NCBI RefSeq assembly: GCF_001633105.1
Contig: NZ_LUKZ01000025.1
Coordinates: 62,001-126,000 of the forward strand
DNA: 64,000 bases
Direction: 5' to 3'
Source: Acidovorax sp. GW101-3H11
Lineage (GTDB): Bacteria; Pseudomonadota; Gammaproteobacteria; Burkholderiales; Burkholderiaceae_C
Each line of letters opens with the position of its first letter. Positions within the stretch are counted from its first letter, which is position 1. Shown piece by piece: positions 9,816 through 62,531 of the stretch. A program made the translations under genes and the position numbers. Below the pieces are notes generated by a model. It saw only the letters and a program-made list of their open reading frames with translations. It had not been told where the DNA came from and did no database searches.

Positions 9816-10810
9816 TCCGTGGCCAGGCCCAGCTTGTCGATCAGCGGACGCCACACGGCCGCATCGCGGGCCGCCCAGGTGCGGGCATCGCCGGGTGCTG
9901 AGTGGGTCAGCGTGACGTTCATCGCTTCCAGGCGGGACTTGTACTGCGCATCACCACCCCGGCATTTTTCGGTGACGGTATTGAGCCGGTTCAACAGCTC
10001 GGGCGGCGTGCCTGCCTTGGCCACCACCGCGATCCACGCAGGCCGCGCCAGGTCGCTGGCGGCGGGCAGGGCTTCGGCGATGGTGGGCACATCGGGCAGC
10101 AGCGCCGAACGCTGCGCACCAAACAGCGCCAGCGGCACCAGCTTGCCCGCCTTGACCTGCGCTGCCGCCGTGCCAATCACCAGCGTCATCGCATGGATCT
10201 GCTGGCCCATGAGCGCAGTCAGGCCCGCGCCCTCGCCCACAAAGGGCACATGGGTGCCGGGCACGCCCAGTTTCTCGACGAGCGCAGAGGTCAGCAGGTG
10301 CGCTGGGCTGCCCTTGCCCGGCGACCCGAAGTTGATACCGCCCGGCGTGGAGCGCGCCAGCTTCTGCAGATCCGCCAAGCTCGCAATGCCCTGCCCTGCT
10401 GGCACGGCCAGCACCAGGGGCGATGTGCCTAGCACGGCCACACCGTCAAAGTCGTGTTGCGGGTCATACGGCGGCTGCTTGTAGACATAGGGCGTGATCG
10501 TCATCTGCGACATGCCGATGCTCAGCAGGCTGTAGCCGTCGGCAGGCTGGGACTTGAGGTAGTTGATGGCCAGGATGCCATTGGCCCCGGGCTTGTTCTG
10601 CACCACCACGGCCTGGCCCAGCTCGCGCGCGGCGCAGTCGGCCCACACGCGCGTCATCGCGTCCGAGCCGCTGCCGGGCGGTTGCTGGGCGATGAGCTGG
10701 ATGGGCTTGGCGGGGTAGCCGCCCGGCTGCTGCGCCTGGGCGCCACCGGCCAGACAAGCGAGTGCGGCGAGCGCGACCGTGCGTGAAACGCGCGTAAATG
10801 CTGAGGTCAT
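9812..10810 (-). CDS. Bug-family tripartite tricarboxylate transporter receptor
   Basis: A 332-residue periplasmic solute-binding protein of the Bug/TctC family, abundant in Burkholderiales, which captures carboxylates and similar acids. The signal peptide ends in GGAQAQQ near residue 27. The mature protein opens with YPAKPIQLIAQQPPGSGSDAMTR and has the family segments VVVQNKPGANGILA and INFGSPGKGSPAH. The ATG at 10810 has a ggagaca ribosome site. No TctA/TctB membrane genes are adjacent, which is common for Bug genes. The downstream esterase is coupled by ATGA, and a TetR gene lies immediately upstream on the same strand. Confidence 0.9.
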   Translation of the reverse strand: MTSAFTRVSRTVALAALACLAGGAQAQQPGGYPAKPIQLIAQQPPGSGSDAMTRVWADCAARELGQAVVVQNKPGANGILAINYLKSQPADGYSLLSIGMSQMTITPYVYKQPPYDPQHDFDGVAVLGTSPLVLAVPAGQGIASLADLQKLARSTPGGINFGSPGKGSPAHLLTSALVEKLGVPGTHVPFVGEGAGLTALMGQQIHAMTLVIGTAAAQVKAGKLVPLALFGAQRSALLPDVPTIAEALPAASDLARPAWIAVVAKAGTPPELLNRLNTVTEKCRGGDAQYKSRLEAMNVTLTHSAPGDARTWAARDAAVWRPLIDKLGLATE

Positions 10811-10906
10811 GGTGTGTCTCCTAGTGATTTTTTTCGATGGATGTACGCATTGCGTGGCGTGCAGGCGGGAGATGCCGCACACCACAACAAGCAGACAAAT
10901 GGGGGA

Positions 10907-11581
10907 TCAGCGGCGGCGTGTGCGCGCCTTTGAAGGCACAACTACGGCTTCGCACCGGGTGGCGATCCAGTCGGCCAGGCAACCCAGCTGCGCCTGCTGG
11001 GCGGCATCGGGCGCTGACGCCAGTGCGGGCGCAAACAACTGCAGCATCCCCAGCCCACGCAACGACGACAGCACCAGGCCCAGCAGGCCATCGCGGTCGG
11101 GTTCTGCCGCCAGCTCGGGGAAGGCCGTGAAGAAGCCTTCGTGCATGCGCGCCTGCACACTCTGGCGCAGCTCGGCAATGTGGCCCAGCACCTCGGGCTG
11201 GTTGCGGCAGCCCAGATAGATGTTCCACGCCACGATGAAGCGCGGCTGGGCATAGACCAGGCGCCACACCGCCTGCACAAACGTTGTTGCTCGCTCGCGC
11301 ACTGGCAGCGCGGGGCTGGGCCAGAGTTCGCCCGAGCGCACGGTGGACTCGATCAGCTCGCTGAGCACGTTCATCATCAGCACCGCCTTCGACTCGAAGT
11401 GATGCTGCACCGCGCCCGAGGTCATGCCCGCCGACTTGGCCAGCTCGTGGATGGACATCTCCTCCAGGCTTCGGTGCTGGATCACGTCGATGGCCGTGGC
11501 GATGAGGTGCTGGCGCGTGGCGGCGCTGCGCTCGGCATGGGTGCGGCGCGCCCCGGCCTTGGGGGAAACACGGTGGTTCAT
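10907..11581 (-). CDS. TetR-family transcriptional regulator
   Basis: A 224-residue repressor. The N-terminal helix-turn-helix spans about residues 20-65 and reads ATRQHLIATAIDVIQHRS then IHELAKSAGMTSGAVQHHFESK, the classic TetR recognition region. The rest is a helical ligand domain. It lies between the Bug/esterase pair (same strand, downstream) and a divergent FAD-linked oxidase, so either or both could be targets. A palindrome directly upstream of its start is a good operator candidate. The inducer is unknown. Confidence 0.9.
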   Translation of the reverse strand: MNHRVSPKAGARRTHAERSAATRQHLIATAIDVIQHRSLEEMSIHELAKSAGMTSGAVQHHFESKAVLMMNVLSELIESTVRSGELWPSPALPVRERATTFVQAVWRLVYAQPRFIVAWNIYLGCRNQPEVLGHIAELRQSVQARMHEGFFTAFPELAAEPDRDGLLGLVLSSLRGLGMLQLFAPALASAPDAAQQAQLGCLADWIATRCEAVVVPSKARTRRR

Positions 11582-37369: not shown

Positions 37370-38341
37370 ATGCCAAACCCGCGCACACAGCCCGCCATGC
37401 CCATGACGCCCACCGAACCGGTGGTGGAACACTTTGCCGCCCAGGTCGTGCCGCGCTCCCCGGCCGGCAAGCCGCGCGGGCTGTCGTATGTGGACTCGCT
37501 CACGCCCGAGCTGTTTGTGCCCACCCCCGCCCGCCCGGTGCGCGCCAAGCTGCGCTGGCTGGCCGCCGACACGCAGGTGATGCCCCACAGCCACCCCTGG
37601 GCGCAGGTGGCGATCTCCACCACGGGCGTGATCCGGCTCACAGTGAACCACGGCACCTACATCGTGCCGCCCTCGCGCGCGCTGTGGATTCCGCCCGGCG
37701 TGGAACATGCCGTGACCATGGTGGAAGACGCCGACCTGCGCACGCTGTACTTTCACCAGCCCCGGGGGCGCTGCGGCCCCGGCGTGCCGCGCGACCAGGA
37801 AGACGCCTGGCGCCAGTGCCGTGTGCTGGAGGTGTCCGACCTGCTGCGCGCCCTGGTGCGCGAGATGCCCACCGCACCCGATGGCGGCCCTGCCACCACC
37901 CCCGCCGAACTGCGGCGCGAGCAGCACCTGAGCGCGCTGGTCAAGGGCGAGCTGGCCCGCGCCGCCGCCGTGAAGCTGGGCGTGGACCTGCCGCAGGACA
38001 AGCGCCTGCGCCACCTCTGCGAAGCCGTGCTGGCCGACCCCACGCGCCACGACACCCTGGCCGACTGGGCGCAGGACACGGGCGCCAGCCCCCGCACCGT
38101 GGCGCGCCTGTTCCGCTCCGAACTGGGCAGCACCTTCACCCAGTGGCGCCAGCAGGTGATTCTGGCCAAGGCCGTATCGCTGGCCGCCGGGCGCATGCCC
38201 ATGGGCCAGATCGCCGCCGAGCTGGGCTACAGCGCGAGCGCCTTCAGCGCCATGGTGCGCAAGTCTGTGGGGCAGCCGCCGGGGCGGTTTTTGGGGCAGC
38301 AGGATTTCAATGAATCTGCGGGTGGCAAGCCTGTTGCGTGA
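37370..38341 (+). CDS. AraC-family regulator with cupin sensor domain
   Basis: A 323-residue AraC protein. The N-terminal cupin includes MPHSHPWAQVAISTTGVIRLTVNHGTYIVPPSRALWIPPGVEHAV, and the C-terminal DNA-binding domain has two helix-turn-helix units, LADWAQDTGASPRTVARLFRSELG and IAAELGYSASAFSAMVRKSVGQPPGRF. This layout matches NimR/YeaM-type regulators, whose usual target is a neighbouring MFS exporter, as found here in divergent orientation. The end of this gene marks the left edge of a lower-GC segment. Confidence 0.9.
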   Translation: MPNPRTQPAMPMTPTEPVVEHFAAQVVPRSPAGKPRGLSYVDSLTPELFVPTPARPVRAKLRWLAADTQVMPHSHPWAQVAISTTGVIRLTVNHGTYIVPPSRALWIPPGVEHAVTMVEDADLRTLYFHQPRGRCGPGVPRDQEDAWRQCRVLEVSDLLRALVREMPTAPDGGPATTPAELRREQHLSALVKGELARAAAVKLGVDLPQDKRLRHLCEAVLADPTRHDTLADWAQDTGASPRTVARLFRSELGSTFTQWRQQVILAKAVSLAAGRMPMGQIAAELGYSASAFSAMVRKSVGQPPGRFLGQQDFNESAGGKPVA

Positions 38342-38421
38342 CGGTGCCAAGCGACCTGTACGGTCTTGCAGATTACCCCGTGGGGGACTCAGGCACCGCC
38401 TGTCGGCAACTCCCTCGTGCT

Positions 38422-38799
38422 CTAGGGACCGTTCTCCGGCGAGCCGTCAAACGACATCTCCAAAGCGTATCCCCCTTGACCCTGCGGCACGCTGACGGTG
38501 CCCATATCCACCATCTTGAACGGCTGGAAACAGCCCCCATCAGCTTGGAAATAGGGCTCCCTTTTCACGCCCCAGCTTTTCACCCAATCACGAGGGCCTG
38601 GGCCCACCTTCTGACCAACTTCCGCGAGGACAAGAAAATCCTCACCGTTCCACATTCCGATGTTTGCGTTGCGCCCTCGCCCTGCGTACCAACGGCCAAC
38701 AATCAACGCGTCCTTGGAAATTTGCGTGCATGTCACCAATTGAGACGGCCTCCAAATCAACTTCGCACCAAACAGAGACCCACGCGGACTTTGCGCCAA
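38422..38799 (-). CDS. Unknown small protein downstream of the nuclease fusion gene
   Basis: A frame of about 125 residues beginning 13 bases after the nuclease gene stop. The start is uncertain: I place it at the TTG at 38799, the first possible codon past that stop; the same frame extends further upstream but there overlaps the nuclease gene. The codon choice looks like real coding at lower GC. The sequence has SKDALIVGRWYAGRGRNANIGMWNGEDFLVLAEVGQ and ends in a Gly/Pro-rich stretch, suggesting a small beta-rich domain. I recognise no family. It would be the third gene of the WYL/nuclease unit. Confidence 0.4.
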   Translation of the reverse strand: MAQSPRGSLFGAKLIWRPSQLVTCTQISKDALIVGRWYAGRGRNANIGMWNGEDFLVLAEVGQKVGPGPRDWVKSWGVKREPYFQADGGCFQPFKMVDMGTVSVPQGQGGYALEMSFDGSPENGP

Positions 38800-38812
38800 A
38801 AGCTCTGAGTTA

Positions 38813-41353
38813 TCAGCGGTTGAGCAATTTCTCGACGTGCGCCAGGAACTGGCTACCCGCAATCCAGTTGCTTCCAAGCTTCTTGCCCACACCACCTTCT
38901 GCAAGGTCACACTTGTAGGCCTTCGCTCGGAGTTGCTCAAGGGTCATTGTCGGCAGCGCTGAACGCCAGTTCTTCAGACCCACGACCCAAGAGGCCCCCT
39001 CCATGCGACACCGTTCCAGAAGCGTATCGAAATCGAGCACCTCCCGATAGTTCCTGACTCCCGAGGCAGAAGGGACCTCACCGTTACGCAACCGGCGCGT
39101 GAGCAAGTCCAGCGACAGCAGGCTGCTTCGCACGGCGGGCCACTGGTCGGCATAGTCATGCGCCTCGAGCGACTCTGGCAGGTCAGCGAACGACATCCAG
39201 GTCCAACCATCCTCACCGGTCGGCCAATCCACCGGCTTGCTCACCTGAGGTGCCAGATAGATGACCTTGGCGCGTGAGCAGTGGCCCAAGGCTTCGCGCA
39301 GTCCATTGGCATCAGAGGCACCAAACCCTTGCGCCAGCAGGTTGCGCACGTTCTGGTACTTGCCCCGCTCCTGGGAGGCGGCTCCAATCGCGTCCAGGTC
39401 ATCAAGAAGGAACGCCGCAGACCCCTCTCGGACAATCTTGCTCTGAAGTTCCCGATAGATAGCGGCCTGTTCTGGACGAAAGGTGGTGTCCGTGGTCTTC
39501 AGTTCCACCAACAGCAGTTCTCGCGTGGCGAGATTGAGCATCAGCCAGTCGATGTTGGTGGACTGGTTGTTGCCAGCCTTCTGGATCGGAAATTCCGGGC
39601 ACAGCATCACGATGTCATCGTCCGGCCTAGACGCCAGTGCGTCGGCCAGAAAGAAGCCGATGATCGGTCCGATGGAGCGCTCGACCTGCACCTTGGGAAT
39701 CATGGTGCCCTGCATCAGGTGCTGCATCAGGGCTGCGAAAAACGGGACTTCTTTTGCGGATTCGGAATGCGCGTGGGATTGAGTCAGCATGGCTTTTTCT
39801 CCTTGGGTACTGTCTATGGGTTGAGGTATTGAGTAGCTTTGCGAGAATTTTTTCCAGACCTCCACCATCGCCAGCGTGTCCAGCGCGCAATACGCCAAGA
39901 GTTCATCGCGAATCAGCGCCTTGCGCTGTGGTGATGTGGCCGGTGCGATGGCTTCAAGGTACGCAGCCATTGCCATGCCTCCATCCTGCACACCCGTGAG
40001 CGCGTCATACCCCAGGCGGGGCGCGATGGTGGGCAACACTTTCTTGATGCTCCAGCTCCCATGCTGGCGCGGGTCGTAATACCGAGCCTGTGCAATTGGC
40101 AGCAGATCCACCAGCCTGCCGCGAATCGCCTCCAGTTCTGGGGCCAAGGCGGGAAAGCGCTGGGCGAGTTCCTTCAGGCGGCTGCCTTCAAATCCTGCGT
40201 GGTAGACGAAAACGGGAAGCGGCTGTGCACAAGTGCGGACCAATTGCGCTGCAAACGCTTCCGAGGGTTCGTTGCCGGAGATATCAAGAAAGGACTCATG
40301 GCTCAGTTGCCCCTGCGCATCCATCCGGTGCAGGCTGAACTGAAAAGGCAGCATCTGGAATGGCCGCGTACCCGCCCACCGAGGCACTCCAAACTGAATG
40401 GTTTCGAAATCCAGGAAGTACGCAGGCAACGGGTACGGCAGCAGATCCTGCCTGGCGCCTTCAGCATCAAAGTACGCCCGTCCGGCAACGGTGGCATCAC
40501 GCACACGGCGTTGCAGAGGGGTGAGCAGCGCTTCGGGCACATCCCGCATGTCTTGTGCGTCGGTGTGAGCCAGAAAATCCTTGAGCGCTTTGGATGAAGT
40601 GCGCGGCAGCCAGGCAACAGGGAACTCCACCGAAGGCAGGTTCTTTCGACAATGCTCCTGAAACCCGCAGGGAAAAGGGGTTTCGCACTGCGTCCCCATC
40701 TGCACATCTGGAGGCACGGCCTGCGCGGCCACCCGCTGCGCGTTGTCAATCCACGCCGCCACCTCCCCGCTGCGTGCAAGGGCGCCATCGGTGACATCTT
40801 TCTCGACGAGCAAACCCTGGTAGTTGCCCTCGCCCGGGTAAATCCACGCCGCGTCGATGTGCGCAATACAAACGTTGCGCACTTCAATGCCCGCCGCCCG
40901 GGCGATGTGGCTTTGAATGGCAGCATCGTCTTCCTGGTAGGCTTTGACAGAAGTCGATGACTTGACCTCCACCATCTTCCAGGCAGGCGTAGCGCCATCC
41001 ATGACTGGCAGCATCGCATCGGCAAATGCGAGTCCCCCCGCCGCAGACATACCAGCTTCAAACAGTGGCTTGCGCGCCAGCAGAAGCTCACGGGTCTTTT
41101 CCACCGCCGCAGCCACGCCCTCGGCCTGCAAGTCGATGGTTACGCCATCACCCGCCGAGTCATAGATTTGCTGCGCCACGGCCCCCACTTCATGGCCCGT
41201 CTGGAAAACGGCTTGCGTAGCTGCGGAGTCTTGCCGCGCCCCGGGTTGGTGGACTTCCAGCCAGAAACGCTTGGGGCACTGCCTGAAAGCTATCAGCTTG
41301 GATTTCGACAGGGCACGCACGGGGTGTTCTTCCGTAGAAAAGTGGTTTGGCAT
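38813..41353 (-). CDS. Multi-nuclease fusion: Cas4-like/DUF2779, DEDDy exonuclease and C-terminal PD-(D/E)XK
   Basis: An 846-residue protein made of at least three nuclease-like parts. Residues 15-240: Cas4/RecB-like nuclease with LSKSKLIAFRQCPKRFWLEV, the EVK motif (Glu129, Lys131), and Cys26, Cys223, Cys229 and Cys235 spaced as in an iron-sulfur Cas4. Residues 305-500: DUF2779/RNase H-like DEDDy exonuclease with YFLDFET (Asp315, Glu317) and AYCALDT (Tyr488, Asp492). Residues 535-700: a second PD-(D/E)XK core with NIDWLML and LLLVELKTTDTTF (Asp602, Glu617, Lys619). The last 150 residues are unassigned. DUF2779 proteins are usually shorter and end after the exonuclease. An in-frame ATG with a perfect ribosome site begins the third part. 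The start at 41353 is chosen by similarity of the N-terminus; an earlier ATG at 41401 overlaps the WYL gene. Confidence 0.82.
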   Translation of the reverse strand: MPNHFSTEEHPVRALSKSKLIAFRQCPKRFWLEVHQPGARQDSAATQAVFQTGHEVGAVAQQIYDSAGDGVTIDLQAEGVAAAVEKTRELLLARKPLFEAGMSAAGGLAFADAMLPVMDGATPAWKMVEVKSSTSVKAYQEDDAAIQSHIARAAGIEVRNVCIAHIDAAWIYPGEGNYQGLLVEKDVTDGALARSGEVAAWIDNAQRVAAQAVPPDVQMGTQCETPFPCGFQEHCRKNLPSVEFPVAWLPRTSSKALKDFLAHTDAQDMRDVPEALLTPLQRRVRDATVAGRAYFDAEGARQDLLPYPLPAYFLDFETIQFGVPRWAGTRPFQMLPFQFSLHRMDAQGQLSHESFLDISGNEPSEAFAAQLVRTCAQPLPVFVYHAGFEGSRLKELAQRFPALAPELEAIRGRLVDLLPIAQARYYDPRQHGSWSIKKVLPTIAPRLGYDALTGVQDGGMAMAAYLEAIAPATSPQRKALIRDELLAYCALDTLAMVEVWKKFSQSYSIPQPIDSTQGEKAMLTQSHAHSESAKEVPFFAALMQHLMQGTMIPKVQVERSIGPIIGFFLADALASRPDDDIVMLCPEFPIQKAGNNQSTNIDWLMLNLATRELLLVELKTTDTTFRPEQAAIYRELQSKIVREGSAAFLLDDLDAIGAASQERGKYQNVRNLLAQGFGASDANGLREALGHCSRAKVIYLAPQVSKPVDWPTGEDGWTWMSFADLPESLEAHDYADQWPAVRSSLLSLDLLTRRLRNGEVPSASGVRNYREVLDFDTLLERCRMEGASWVVGLKNWRSALPTMTLEQLRAKAYKCDLAEGGVGKKLGSNWIAGSQFLAHVEKLLNR
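39788..39804 (-). promoter_or_regulatory. Internal ribosome site and ATG inside the nuclease fusion gene
   Basis: On the minus strand aaggag (39804-39799) is followed after 8 bases by ATG (39790-39788), in frame with the large protein. Initiation here would give a separate 325-residue C-terminal nuclease. The linker encoded just before it (QPIDSTQGEKA) looks like former intergenic sequence. Confidence 0.6.
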
Positions 41354-41393
41354 CGCGGGGGAAAGAATGCTGTTGACGAGGTACCGCCGCAGA

Positions 41394-42350
41394 CTACGCA
41401 TCAACGGGAGACACGGCCCGCGCGCATTGCGAACCCGCCCCCCATTTCGCCAGCGCTTGCTCCAGGCCGTGGACCAGCGCTTGGTGCCAGGCCAACGGCT
41501 GCACGATGCGCACATGTGGCAGCCAATAACGCACCACGGGCAACAACTGGTTCAGGTGGCTGACATGGGCTGTGACAAGCAACGACCCATCCGCGTCCTG
41601 CCTGTGCTGCTGCCTGGGCAGGATGGCGCGTCGCACGAAGTAATACGCTACCTCGGAATCAACGCGCAAAAGCACCTCCTTGGTGTCGGTGGCGAACCAC
41701 ATGTCCTCTTTGCGGTTGATGTAGTCATGGTGTCGCCGGTCCGGGGTGAAATGACTGGCTTCATCCGATTGCAGAGACTGAATCCGTGCCACGCTGAAGC
41801 TCTTGAGTTGCCGCCCTTCGGCAGCGGCCAGGTACCACACGCCATTGTTGTGAATCAAACGATATGGCTGGACATGACGAGGCTTGGCCTTGTAGGTGAA
41901 TCGACATTCGTGGTGCTTCTCAATGGCCCTCTGCAGCAGGGCGAACTGCGGGCCCAGCCCTTGCAGGTCCTCGCTAGGCATGGGCTGAACCCGTACTGCA
42001 TGCCCAACAGACTTTCGCGTGTCCAAAAGCCCCAGGAGATAACCCAGGCCGTTGTCCGGAAACAGATGCTCGGTACCTGCCAACCGGGCGTAGACGCCGA
42101 GATGGCTTGCGGGGATCAAGGCGCGGGCCGCGTGGGCCAGTTGCCAACGGCCTTCAGGAGTGCGTTCAGCAATGCCGTACAGGCGTTCGCCCAGATCACG
42201 TTCAATTGTTCGCACATCCACCTCGAAGTCCCGCGCCAGCCGATGCTTGTCAACAACGTCTCCCTGATGCAGTTGCGCCAGGATCTGGGCTAGGCGTTGC
42301 GCCAGCTTTTCTCCTTTGGCGCTTGTGCGGCGGGCGGCAGGGGTGTTCAT
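41394..42350 (-). CDS. WYL-domain transcriptional regulator
   Basis: A 318-residue regulator. A helix-turn-helix lies at about residues 15-60 (AQILAQLHQGDVVDKHRLARDFEVDVRTIERDL), and the WYL domain at about 135-215 contains the hallmark VWYL (171-174) and SFSVARIQSL. A C-terminal extension (YFVRRAILPR, then VVRYWLPHVRIVQP) completes the WCX region. WYL proteins of this kind often repress anti-phage or stress genes until a nucleic acid or nucleotide signal appears. It lies directly upstream of the nuclease fusion gene and is probably its regulator. The ATG at 42350 is chosen to begin MNTPAARRTS; no strong ribosome site. Confidence 0.88.
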   Translation of the reverse strand: MNTPAARRTSAKGEKLAQRLAQILAQLHQGDVVDKHRLARDFEVDVRTIERDLGERLYGIAERTPEGRWQLAHAARALIPASHLGVYARLAGTEHLFPDNGLGYLLGLLDTRKSVGHAVRVQPMPSEDLQGLGPQFALLQRAIEKHHECRFTYKAKPRHVQPYRLIHNNGVWYLAAAEGRQLKSFSVARIQSLQSDEASHFTPDRRHHDYINRKEDMWFATDTKEVLLRVDSEVAYYFVRRAILPRQQHRQDADGSLLVTAHVSHLNQLLPVVRYWLPHVRIVQPLAWHQALVHGLEQALAKWGAGSQCARAVSPVDA

Positions 42351-42549
42351 GCGAAGTGGGACATGGGTTATGACGAAACGCAGTGTAGGCAAAGGCTGCG
42401 ACAGGTTGTGTCGGAACAACTGGCAATTTGTTTATGAGTAAAAAGGAATTTCCAAACGCATTCCGCCGTTCCGGCGCCTATCCAAAGCGCCTGATGTACC
42501 CGCAGCAAGTCCTCCACGCCGCACCCAATCCCGATACCATGCAAGCAGC

Positions 42550-44112
42550 ATGAAACCCCTGCGCCCCCTGCTGCTAGCCCTGCTTTGCGCGGCGCCCTTC
42601 CTGGCCCACGCAGCGCCGCTGGACGTCACACCCGACACGCTGATCGAACGCGCCAACCTGCTGCGCGACGCCCGCGAGCGCCCGTGGGACCCGACCACGG
42701 GCCGGCTGGGCAACTTGCGGCATGTGCACATCATCGCCAACGACTGCACGGTGCGTGTGGTGTCGGGTGCGGAGAACCGGCTGTTTCTCGGGCGGGGGAC
42801 GTTCCAGGTGGACGACACCACCTATGGCGCGGACCGCCTGGGCGGCAGCCGCCCCAGGCTGTACGACGTGACGATCAGCGCCGTGCAGGGCGCGTCGGCC
42901 ATCCCGCGCGTGGGCGCTGACAACGCTGCCGTGTGCTTTACGCTGCAGCTGGCCACAGCCCACGAACTGCTGCTGCGTGGCGATAACCTGAAGGTGCTGT
43001 TCGATCGCGTGGACCTGCCGGCGTTGCGAATCAGCCTGAACCCCAGCCACGGCATGAGGCTGTGGTTCCATGGGGTGCGCCTGGGCCTGCTGAGCGTGCA
43101 CTCAAACGCATCGGTCGTGGCGGGTGGAACGGGCCAGGCCCAGTGGCTGCAACTGGCCAGCGCGCAAAGAAGCACAGCGCTGCTGTTCCACGACATGGAT
43201 GCGCGCCACGCGGGCGTGTCAGCCACCACCACCCGGACACGGTTTTCCATCCGCATTGGCGCAGACACCGAAGCAGGCTACTACCAGCCGGCCAGCGCGC
43301 CGGGCAAGATCGCACTGGAGTACCCGATCTGGATCGATGGCCCCGTCAGCGCGCTGAAAGTGCCTGCGGGCCGCGTGAACCCCATGCCCTTGACCAGCGC
43401 CCTGCGCGATGAAACCCGCGCGCTACAGCAGGACGTGATGGGCCTTGCGGGCCCCCGGCCGGTGCTGCCAGCGCCCGACCCGGGCGCTCCACCGCCCCCG
43501 GGCGCGCAGGCTGCCAGCGGTGAGCCCGTCTCGCCGCGCCAGCGGGTCAGCAATGTGCTGCAGCCGCTGCTGCCCAGCGGCATGACCCTGGGCAAGATCG
43601 ACCTGTGGAAGGACGGCGCAGCACTGGAAGGCCGAGCGCCCGACGACGCGGCCGTGCGCCAGTGGGTGCAGGTGCTGGAGCGCTCGGGCGAGGTGCGTAA
43701 CCCGCAGGTGGCATGGGTCCGGCGCGAGGGTGACCAGGTGGCCTACCGCGTGCTCGTCAACTTTCTGTGCGCGGCTCCGGGCGAGCGCAGCGTGTGCCTG
43801 CCAGCAACGGGCAGCGCCTACACCCAACAGCAGGTGGAAGACGCGCTGCGCCCGGTGCTGGGCAACGGGGTGACCCTGACCAAGCTGGTGCTGCGCGATG
43901 GCAAGCGCGGCCAGCTTGTCGAGCTGGAGGGAGGCGGCAGCGAGGCCGAGGTCCGCGCGGCGCTGGAGCGCGTGCGCCAGCAGATACCCTGGTTGACGGC
44001 GTCGAGCTCCGGCATTGGCCAGGGCTCGTTCTCTGCCCTGCTGCGCATGGTGTGTGCGGTACCGCCGCCCGCCACCCCCGGCATTTGCGCAGCGCCCGAA
44101 CAGCGCCGCTGA
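42550..44112 (+). CDS. Exported protein with a C-terminal tandem domain, function unknown
   Basis: A 520-residue exported protein. The signal peptide is residues 1-20 (LLLALLCAAPFLAHA). Residues 55-270 look like a beta-rich domain (HVHIIANDCTVRVVSG, then LLSVHSNASVVAGG). A Pro-rich linker lies at about 300-330. Residues 333-410 and 429-505 are two copies of one domain, each running from a helix (VSNVLQPLLPSGMTLGKI and VEDALRPVLGNGVTLTKL) through strands to a final cysteine (NFLCAAP and RMVCAVP). No family is recognised; the repeat unit has the look of a small ferredoxin-like domain. It lies at the right edge of the lower-GC segment but is itself of normal high GC. Confidence 0.75.
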   Translation: MKPLRPLLLALLCAAPFLAHAAPLDVTPDTLIERANLLRDARERPWDPTTGRLGNLRHVHIIANDCTVRVVSGAENRLFLGRGTFQVDDTTYGADRLGGSRPRLYDVTISAVQGASAIPRVGADNAAVCFTLQLATAHELLLRGDNLKVLFDRVDLPALRISLNPSHGMRLWFHGVRLGLLSVHSNASVVAGGTGQAQWLQLASAQRSTALLFHDMDARHAGVSATTTRTRFSIRIGADTEAGYYQPASAPGKIALEYPIWIDGPVSALKVPAGRVNPMPLTSALRDETRALQQDVMGLAGPRPVLPAPDPGAPPPPGAQAASGEPVSPRQRVSNVLQPLLPSGMTLGKIDLWKDGAALEGRAPDDAAVRQWVQVLERSGEVRNPQVAWVRREGDQVAYRVLVNFLCAAPGERSVCLPATGSAYTQQQVEDALRPVLGNGVTLTKLVLRDGKRGQLVELEGGGSEAEVRAALERVRQQIPWLTASSSGIGQGSFSALLRMVCAVPPPATPGICAAPEQRR

Positions 44113-44150
44113 GCCATGGAGTGGTGGCCCAGTGCTCCCACAACCCCTGT

Positions 44151-44190
44151 GCGCGCGATCCATATGCCCGGATAGCTATGAAAAAGTGAG
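44151..44190. repeat. AT-rich gene-end repeat, copy 5 (partial)
   Basis: gcccggatagctatgaaaaag, 60 bases after the stop of the tandem-domain protein, matches the AT-rich end of the dispersed family. The other half is weak. Confidence 0.35.
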
Positions 44191-44270
44191 CATCAAGATA
44201 TCCTGGAGGCTGCAGCGCGCCGCGTCTGCCGCTAAGGTGTGGGCCTGTTTGCCCCACCCTGCCGCGCCCC

Positions 44271-61241: not shown

Positions 61242-62531
61242 TCAGCGGAATTTGTCGAGTGGAATGATCCCCGCCATCTGCGCGTAGCCCAGATCGTTCA
61301 CATGCAGACTGTCGGTGTCCCGGTACGCAGCCAATATGCGTGCAGGCTCGGCCGGATCGCGCACAGCAGCGTCAAAATCAAATACACCTGCGACATCGGT
61401 ATTGGCTCGAATCCAGGCATTTACCGTCTGGCGCATTTCCTCTCCCGCGTCAGAAAAATATACGTGGCCCTTGAAAGGCGTCAAAGTAGCCAGGGACACC
61501 TGAATCCCGGCAGCCTTCGCAGTCGCCACCACCCCCGCAAGGCTGGCGATCACCTCCGCCGCCGTGGCCTTTTCACCCGGTGTCCAGGCCTGCTGAAAAC
61601 CGATGTCGTTGATGCCCATCTGCACGATGGCATGCGTCACGCCCGACACCCCGAGCACGTCGCGCCGAAAGCGCTCCACACCCCTCAAGCCAAAACGGTC
61701 GTGCAACCAGCGGTTGCCCCCCAGCCCGGCATTGACCACCGACACCGGGGTGCCTGCGCCAGCCTTGAGCAAGCGCGCAGACAACAGGTCGGGATAGCGC
61801 TGGTTCGACCCCAAAGTGGAGCCATTCCCATCGGTCAGCGAATCACCGAAGGCCACCACCACGCGGGCAGGGCCCTTCTTGTACACATCGATCGCGCTCA
61901 TCCAGTGCCACGAAGTGAGCAGGTTCTCAGGGGCCGACGGCATGGCCACCGTGCTGCTCAAATCGCCGGAAGCCAGGTGCTGGACCGCATTCGCGTACCG
62001 GTGCGCCGATGTGGAATCGGCCGCCTCGCGCACATACACGCTCACCGCCAGGTTGCCACCATCGGGCACGCGGATCGATACCTTGTCGCTCCAGACCTCG
62101 CCACCGGCAGGGATCGACACAGACTCCCGCCCCTGGAAGGTCACGGCCACATCCGTCGCCACATCCACCGCCCCGGCCCCCGCGCTCAAGGCAACGCGAA
62201 CCCGCTCCAGCGGAACGGGCGCCTTGCCATACAAGTTGCCAAATTTGATGCGCACCTGGTCGCCACCCAGAGACAGGTGTGCGGTCTGCCGCAACGTCTG
62301 GTTCTGGAAAACCGTGCTGGCGGGCGGCGGTATGTCGAGAAAACGCACGTCTTCCTTCAGATCGCTCAAAACACCCTGCCAGGTTCCCACGGGCTTCGCC
62401 TCCTCGGGTACAGCCGCATCACCGCCCGAGCCCCCGCCACCACAACCGGCGAGCCCGCCCGCAGCGAAGGCACCGAGTGCCGACAAAACAAATCGCCGAT
62501 TGGTACGCATCCAGGTTTTCACAGACTGCAT
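61242..62531 (-). CDS. SGNH/GDSL-family esterase lipoprotein
   Basis: A 429-residue SGNH hydrolase. The N-terminus has twin arginines (RRFVLS) and a lipobox LAGC with Cys30, followed by a Gly-rich linker, so it should be exported and lipid-anchored. An N-terminal beta domain (residues about 45-190) precedes the catalytic domain: block I AFGDSLTDG, block II NAGLGGNRW, block III MGINDIGF and block V DSLHVNDLGY with the Asp and His. Such two-domain enzymes often deacetylate or de-esterify polysaccharides; substrate not known. Confidence 0.9.
   Translation of the reverse strand: MQSVKTWMRTNRRFVLSALGAFAAGGLAGCGGGGSGGDAAVPEEAKPVGTWQGVLSDLKEDVRFLDIPPPASTVFQNQTLRQTAHLSLGGDQVRIKFGNLYGKAPVPLERVRVALSAGAGAVDVATDVAVTFQGRESVSIPAGGEVWSDKVSIRVPDGGNLAVSVYVREAADSTSAHRYANAVQHLASGDLSSTVAMPSAPENLLTSWHWMSAIDVYKKGPARVVVAFGDSLTDGNGSTLGSNQRYPDLLSARLLKAGAGTPVSVVNAGLGGNRWLHDRFGLRGVERFRRDVLGVSGVTHAIVQMGINDIGFQQAWTPGEKATAAEVIASLAGVVATAKAAGIQVSLATLTPFKGHVYFSDAGEEMRQTVNAWIRANTDVAGVFDFDAAVRDPAEPARILAAYRDTDSLHVNDLGYAQMAGIIPLDKFR

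Follow-up and report, generated by a model that had tools for sequence, protein, structure and literature searches.

The 64,000-nucleotide (nt) window analysed here (positions 62,001–126,000 of contig NZ_LUKZ01000025.1 of Acidovorax sp. GW101-3H11) contains, at positions 38422–42350 of its minus strand, three co-directional genes encoding a WYL regulator, a DUF2779 fusion nuclease and a small protein. A preliminary description of this DNA had pointed to a WYL regulator upstream of an 846-residue nuclease followed by a small frame, and we find that these genes form a real three-gene operon, which we denote the cassette; it may act against viruses in response to DNA damage. Table 1 gives the coordinates; residues of the fusion nuclease are numbered in the 847-codon frame from 41356. 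Translation of the nuclease starts at either ATG 41353 or GTG 41320, and relatives begin at the GTG position. The 172-amino-acid (aa) frame of the small gene is over-long; the conserved protein begins at 38739.

Table 1 Features of the cassette and its promoter (positions in the window)
Feature	Position	Strand	Remarks
HTH-WYL-WCX transcription regulator, 318 aa, DriD/PafBC-like	41394..42350	-	Pfam and PDB searches
Candidate operator CGACACAACCTGTCG (CGACA-N5-TGTCG)	42399..42413	-	48 bp upstream of the WYL start codon
-10-like hexamer TACACT	42382..42387	-	11 nt downstream of the operator
DUF2779-PD-(D/E)XK fusion nuclease	38813..41320	-	835 aa from GTG 41320; 846 aa from ATG 41353
Cas4/RecB-like nuclease domain	40643..41311	-	C27, C224, C230, C236, D113, E130, K132, Q148
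DUF2779 DEDDy-type exonuclease domain	39872..40420	-	D316, E318, E390, Y489, D493; PF11074
C-terminal PD-(D/E)XK nuclease domain	38816..39769	-	E559, D603, E618, K620, Q630
Small conserved protein, 105 aa	38422..38739	-	TTG start, GGAGG upstream
Inserted low-GC segment	38303..42545	.	between an AraC-type gene and a PilN-like gene

The fusion nuclease and its small partner

The fusion nuclease belongs to the DUF2779 family (PF11074), which it matches at 133.6 bits against a curated cut-off of 23.3. Its match to Cas4 is weak (PADLOC, 18.1 bits, E 7e-4), and the C-terminal segment of about 318 aa has no Pfam match of its own. The residues expected of all three nuclease centres are present, as the preliminary description had proposed for a Cas4-like, a DEDDy and a second PD-(D/E)XK centre in one protein. 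In the Cas4-like domain, the four cysteines of Table 1, together with D113, E130, K132 and Q148, are kept in 53–55 of 55 aligned cores, and H55 in 42 of the 55; we take these residues to be those of the iron–sulphur (Fe–S) and RecB motifs. Each of the five DEDDy residues is found in all 55 cores, E390 being a glutamate at what we take to be a position where DEDD proteins usually have aspartate. E559, D603, E618, K620 and Q630 of the PD-(D/E)XK domain are kept in 53–54 of 54 C-terminal domains. A Pfam scan found no helicase domain in the protein, and neither the full fusion protein nor its family profile matches any solved structure.

At least 6,096 proteins match the fusion nuclease at E ≤ 0.001 among 8,000 scored candidates. 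Among the best 120 matches, 15, the protein itself included, extend over 85% or more of the query and the other 105 over 55–60% of it, corresponding to the DUF2779 core. A length-restricted search yielded 85 proteins, some of them possibly fragments, that match the C-terminal domain without the core; 43 members of this C-terminal family were scanned, with HSDR_N_2 in two and SduA_C, weakly, in one. A survey of RNase H-like proteins places DUF2779 (family F.17) among presumed 3′–5′ exonucleases and notes that it carries DUF83 (PMC3985635). The cassette has the same Cas4/DUF83-like and DEDD exonuclease core as the rest of the family but adds a second PD-(D/E)XK nuclease and a small partner, and lacks the AAA gene found near many relatives. 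Solo Cas4/RecB-like nucleases are likewise Fe–S, RecB-type nucleases outside CRISPR, although those are helicase fusions; some UvrD–Cas4 fusions have WYL neighbours (PMC5704561).

A tree built from 65 cores places the nine rows with a fused or split arrangement together with loci L019 and L021 (support 100/99). Because these two loci branch inside the fused or split group, the fusion label requires two changes, either two gains or one gain and losses. L029 is the next branch, with weaker support (92/61). These three loci have neither AAA nor WYL nearby and carry another nuclease-like gene directly after DUF2779, with PDDEXK_4 in L029 and, by eye, an IEAK motif in L019 and L021. The latter proteins belong to a family of 215–274 aa with the motif D..hDL...IEAK, PD-(D/E)XK-like by eye (L019:7326-7973, L021:11506-12213 and L043:8869-9693), whose gene is the next one after DUF2779 in L019 and L021 and is a few genes removed from it in L043; Pfam gave no match for the L019 member. 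Profiles of the fused PD-(D/E)XK domain and of these neighbours align at the ELK/EAK segment only, with a probability of 3%, so we do not claim a relation between them.

The small protein has 40 homologues at E ≤ 0.001, with 20 invariant columns across 20 aligned sequences, and is fused to the nuclease C terminus in three relatives (P0009, P0010 and L017); the homologues and the fusions together indicate that the small gene is real. In L077, a 267-aa protein with the small-protein domain (45 bits) is encoded with a WYL gene (split in two by gene calling) on one side and a PD-(D/E)XK gene on the other. Against solved structures, the small protein gave one match, which at E 0.18 is not useful.

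The WYL regulator and its candidate operator

Pfam detects WYL (49.7 bits) and WCX (40.2 bits) in the regulator, together with a weak N-terminal helix-turn-helix (E 0.04). Searched singly against the PDB, the protein matches only five distinct chains, at E 0.001–0.005. Entries 7TZV, 9PFQ, 9PFV and 9PGA are confirmed as DriD, and we take the other matches (7u02, 9cu3 and 8tp8) to be DriD as well. A profile of 17 family WYL proteins, which mixes two subfamilies 13–21% identical to each other, gave DriD at 1e-20 and PafBC (6sj9) at 1.4e-19, with weaker matches to 7qfz (presumably BrxR) at 1e-4, CapW (9c5g) at 0.005 and 7tb5 (presumably CapW) at 0.02. By profile, the regulator is therefore closest to DriD of Caulobacter and PafBC of mycobacteria, with which it shares the WYL-WCX architecture. 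The CBASS regulator CapW and the BREX regulator BrxR are likewise WYL-WCX proteins encoded with a nuclease or defence operon, but the cassette regulator is distant from them in sequence and we find no close relation.

The architecture of the promoter points the same way. The operator occupies the −35 region, where no −35 box is evident by eye, and the promoter reads cTGTCGCAG-N8-TACACT, matching in both operator and spacing the DriD/PafBC type: the published PafBC site is tTGTCRgtg-8-TAnnnT (PMC5656591), and the DriD consensus, ATACGAC-N7-GTCGTAT, overlaps the −35 region (PMC12340889). The core CGAC-N7-GTCG is common to all three and the −10 element lies equally far from it, although the flanks differ, with a family consensus of TGCGACA against ATACGAC in DriD. 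The cassette operator lies upstream of the −10-like box, whereas those of CapW and BrxR lie over or just downstream of the −10; CapW sites are described as overlapping the −10, and both proteins as repressors. An operator placed at the −35 region and spaced as in DriD and PafBC predicts an activator, and the likeness to BrxR and CapW drawn in the preliminary description is thus probably wrong. DriD and PafBC themselves differ in setting, as they serve chromosomal repair genes whereas the cassette regulator precedes a mobile nuclease cassette.

One exact copy of CGACACAACCTGTCG lies in the window; as 2.2 sites with one mismatch are expected there by chance, its presence alone proves nothing. 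The exact 15-mer recurs in L017, L091 and L139, and the cassette, Acidovorax sp. FJL06, G014 and L017 share it or a near copy upstream of the WYL gene amid otherwise dissimilar DNA. We scanned 81 family loci (1.296 Mb, excluding the 64-kb window), which had been fetched before the motif was known; the motif was first spotted in four of the cassettes. CGACA-N5-TGTCG occurs at 52 sites in 30 of these loci, the highest count among 1,024 five-base half-sites (next highest, 38), against an average of 4.5 for permuted-letter controls (30 permutations, the motif itself included) and 0–6 for other spacers. In the 5.4-Mb source genome the operator is present at four places and the backward control at six. 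Forty-eight of the 52 sites can be oriented to a gene, and in 36 of these nAnnnT starts 10 or 11 nt after the operator, against a background of about two per offset elsewhere.

A position-aware test allowed up to two mismatches in 12 and counted sites just upstream of AAA, WYL or DUF2779 genes. Such sites occur in 27 of the 38 family loci that have a WYL gene close by and in 9 of the 37 that do not; when the loci are regrouped, the figures are 35 of 47 for those with WYL or AAA in the vicinity and 1 of 28 for the rest. Loci richer in these genes have more upstream stretches in which a site can turn up; a fair null therefore takes the best of three random windows and gives 8%. L017 scored 9 in this test owing to a mis-called WYL start. 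An independent sample came from 398 phylum genomes, 22 of them with DUF2779 (the source genome included), from which 24 loci were taken and L223, which has WYL but no upstream DNA, was left out. Here the site was found in four of six loci with WYL beside or near DUF2779 and in none of 17 without (Fisher p 0.002; two of the 17 share identical upstream DNA); L238, L239 and L240 scored 7, 8 and 9. The position-aware result was therefore reproduced in the phylum sample; the exact-operator count did not replicate convincingly.

A Rhodanobacteraceae island (L091:835-9913) has four exact operators, which precede a Sir2-like/78-aa/PD-(D/E)XK set and a PP2C-like gene (both by eye), a WYL gene and DUF2779. 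L139:3449-5850 (G015) has a second WYL gene of the cassette's own subtype, 58% identical and with the exact 15-base operator before it; genes for a 97-aa membrane-like and a 366-aa glycine-rich protein (by eye) follow, and the set lies back to back with the DUF2779 locus.

Insertion site and family context

The cassette segment has a guanine–cytosine (GC) content of 59.6%, the lowest among 1,196 windows of 4,243 bases; the lowest non-overlapping window outside it has 64.6%. In five genomes of the same genus (G010, G012, G013, G457 and G459), the AraC-type and PilN-like flanking genes adjoin without a cassette, and DNA homology to the first four of these ends at 38302 and picks up again at 42545–42601. 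We compared 23 loci at this site (20 picked among the best AraC matches, together with G014, G029 and FJL06), with synteny assessed by tblastn: the cassette is present at the same site in FJL06 and G014, a degraded copy is present in G029, and 20 of the 23 loci have none. Synonymous divergence (dS) from FJL06 is 0.07–0.15 for the cassette and 0.19–0.52 for seven flanking genes; from G014 it is 0.49–1.04 for the cassette and 0.15–0.68 for six flanking genes, the ranges overlapping through one flanking gene (0.68). A cassette out of step with its flanks in this way suggests horizontal exchange or recombination at one fixed site. Low GC, the empty site and the discordant dS thus bear out the earlier proposals of a lower-GC segment and an acquired module.

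The ratio of non-synonymous to synonymous divergence (dN/dS) is 0.14–0.22 for the WYL, DUF2779 and small genes and 0.15–0.23 for the PD-(D/E)XK part, or 0.09 when the latter is compared with the G029 remnant. That degraded copy (L018:10020) keeps an exact CGACA-N5-TGTCG and an open, strongly constrained PD-(D/E)XK frame, and its DUF2779 part is broken. Counting the source genome, the C-terminal domain is found in 3 genomes out of 36 in the genus and 2 out of 399 in the family, and DUF2779 relatives occur in 30 plasmid records. Inspection by eye revealed no terminal repeats or integrase gene around the cassette. A phage origin was considered and rejected: 50,697 phage records gave zero matches at E ≤ 1e-5, and not one of the 53 pattern matches in viral contigs held up. 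The interval separating the AraC-type and flavin-reductase-like genes (38342-44270; L144–L163) varies among species, being empty or holding a PilN-like gene, a 439-aa gene or the cassette.

We surveyed the context of 76 loci that encode DUF2779 or PD-(D/E)XK relatives, among them the cassette's own locus and two plasmid records; some are cut by contig ends and some are near-copies. Within four genes, AAA is found in 34, WYL in 39 and both in 25, the commonest order being AAA-DUF2779-WYL. Of the 24 loci in the phylum sample, 7 have WYL close to DUF2779 and 1 has AAA there, which shows that not every locus has all three genes. By cluster membership (Sir2 excluded, without a matched control), known or candidate defence modules occur in 17 of the 76 loci, and 19 neighbour proteins were scanned with PADLOC. 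ZacABC adjoins in L022 (331, 492 and 895 bits) and PDC-M27ABC in L092 (605, 805 and 1304 bits); other defence-type neighbours are PLD-helicase sets (L034 and L054), GmrSD genes (L030 and L046), PDC-S26 (L029) and Sir2 (L036). Zac, PDC-M27, GmrSD and PDC-S26 adjoin relatives of the AAA-DUF2779-WYL or DUF2779 type and frequently share an operon with them, but no gene of these four modules is found in the cassette. PADLOC v2 has no dedicated model for the relatives, and none of its systems' own models match the cassette proteins; the nuclease matches generic Cas4 only (18 bits), and the WYL protein matches CRISPR-associated WYL models and, weakly, Cas3c.

The PD-(D/E)XK partner also occurs as a separate gene. 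In L138 (G085, 43% identity), AAA, DUF2779, WYL, GmrSD-like and PD-(D/E)XK genes are consecutive on one strand, the GmrSD-like match falling below the Pfam cut-off; P0218 of Brachymonas denitrificans has the same length and 42% identity, and we take G085 to belong to this species. In L062 (Acidovorax sp. 210-6), the PD-(D/E)XK gene lies 8 kb from AAA-DUF2779, past a PLD-helicase set (by cluster and by eye), and in L091 it comes after a Sir2-like gene (by eye), within the island that also holds DUF2779. Loci of this type were fetched through an alignment holding both nucleases and are thus not a random sample. The domain occurs without DUF2779 in L077 and alone in L090, L082–L084 and L086–L088, which counts against a strict link between the two nucleases. 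In the Chloroflexi-type genomes of L082, L083, L084 and L086 (near 10000-11240), it is a stand-alone protein of about 410 aa among ordinary genes and without the operator; its C-terminal tail reads GKK...W..G, seen twice by eye in L082–L084.

Function and rival explanations

We favour, with modest confidence, the reading of the cassette as a horizontally moving nuclease module, most likely anti-phage or anti-plasmid, that is switched on by a DriD/PafBC-type WYL activator. The operon, its catalytic residues, the small gene fused in relatives and purifying selection speak for this reading, as do the empty site, discordant dS and plasmid-borne DUF2779 relatives. Further support comes from the PD-(D/E)XK partner as a separate gene in the L138 operon and the L062 and L091 islands, and by ZacABC, PDC-M27ABC, GmrSD and PDC-S26 beside relatives. 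The regulator class, operator enrichment, the −10-like offset and the match to published DriD and PafBC sites also count in its favour.

Invading or damaged DNA would expose single-stranded DNA (ssDNA), to which, by analogy with DriD and PafBC, the WYL-WCX protein would bind. The activated dimer, on CGACA-N5-TGTCG in the −35 region, would then recruit RNA polymerase and induce the operon; as the WYL gene is first in it, the circuit would include positive autoregulation. Judging from its residues, the fusion protein would attack DNA, the PD-(D/E)XK domain cutting and the Cas4-like Fe–S and DEDDy domains chewing the ends, and the small protein, fused to the nuclease in relatives, may bind or guide it.

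Several observations weigh against this reading. The preliminary description had looked to defence genes among the neighbours of homologues, and the family does often lie beside known or candidate modules; the fused variant itself sits among ordinary genes, away from any large defence island, which leaves its relatives to carry the defence claim. No plasmid record covers 80% of the fusion. The left half of the G014 operator is degenerate, and no operator with at most one mismatch in 12 is found in L138, L090 or six stand-alone Chloroflexi-type loci. The four scores in the independent sample (11, 10, 11 and 10) are reached by 7, 15, 0 and 8% of random windows from their own loci, and the count of exact operators there is weak, with three sites, one of them behind rather than before DUF2779, against a mean of 0.8 over 30 permutations, one of which had six. 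Across 47 genomes of the genus, the 17-base form shows no enrichment, with 26 rows and its backward control 36; even so, 9 of its 26 rows come from DUF2779 or cassette loci.

The leading alternative is DNA repair, in the form of an SOS-independent module for damage repair or end processing whose nucleases, turned on by the WYL activator, would resect broken chromosome ends or clean them up. DriD-type regulation fits it, in that DriD and PafBC control damage genes (PMC12340889, PMC5656591) and the operator and −10 spacing match theirs; so does the membership of Cas4 proteins and the DUF2779 clade in exonuclease families (PMC3985635 and PMC5704561), as does a Prosthecobacter locus (L023:766-6628) in which DUF2779 directly follows a 1,417-aa ImuB-like/DnaE-like polymerase fusion. 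A repair function is harder to reconcile with the rare, patchy distribution in genus, family and phylum, the insertion into an empty site, the degradation in G029, the plasmid-borne relatives and the defence modules in the same operons, and we regard it as unlikely, if by no means negligible. Less probable still is that the WYL protein silences a toxic nuclease until infection, in the manner of CapW and BrxR, the tested immune WYL regulators of the literature consulted, which repress until ssDNA is bound. The profile matches to CapW 9c5g (0.005) and to 7qfz, which we take to be BrxR (1e-4), fall far behind DriD (1e-20), and the operator stands in the place of a −35 box, none being evident by eye, with the −10-like box at the PafBC/DriD offset, unlike CapW sites that overlap the −10. 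That the cassette is an orphan or decaying gene cluster without present function we consider very improbable: the degraded G029 copy, in which the PD-(D/E)XK part alone is open, and the absence of a large defence island nearby would fit, but dN/dS of 0.09–0.23 across the genes and the conserved catalytic residues and operator do not.

Beyond the cassette as a DNA-damage-induced defence module, we tentatively raise a wider possibility, to which we give less credence: DUF2779 islands may constitute an undescribed, defence-dedicated DNA-damage regulon of ssDNA-sensing WYL activators, TGCGACA-N5-TGTCGCA operators, a Cas4–DEDDy core and interchangeable effectors (PD-(D/E)XK, GmrSD, PLD-helicase and Sir2). 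The cassette would then be its most compact form, with core and effector in one polypeptide. The earlier suggestion of a system not yet described still stands within the mostly non-subscription literature searched, judged by titles: no title there describes an AAA-DUF2779-WYL system, and among papers that mention DUF2779 no title concerns defence, although such a system may already have been published elsewhere. Further literature consulted comprises PMC9122588, PMC9122601, PMC13373217, PMC12409362 and PMC12839542.

CapW and BrxR, the tested WYL regulators of immune operons in the literature consulted, are repressors. A WYL activator with a readable operator would, if true, mean a LexA-independent DNA-damage alarm for immune nucleases in some bacteria, and the operator offers a simple search handle for further members and effectors.

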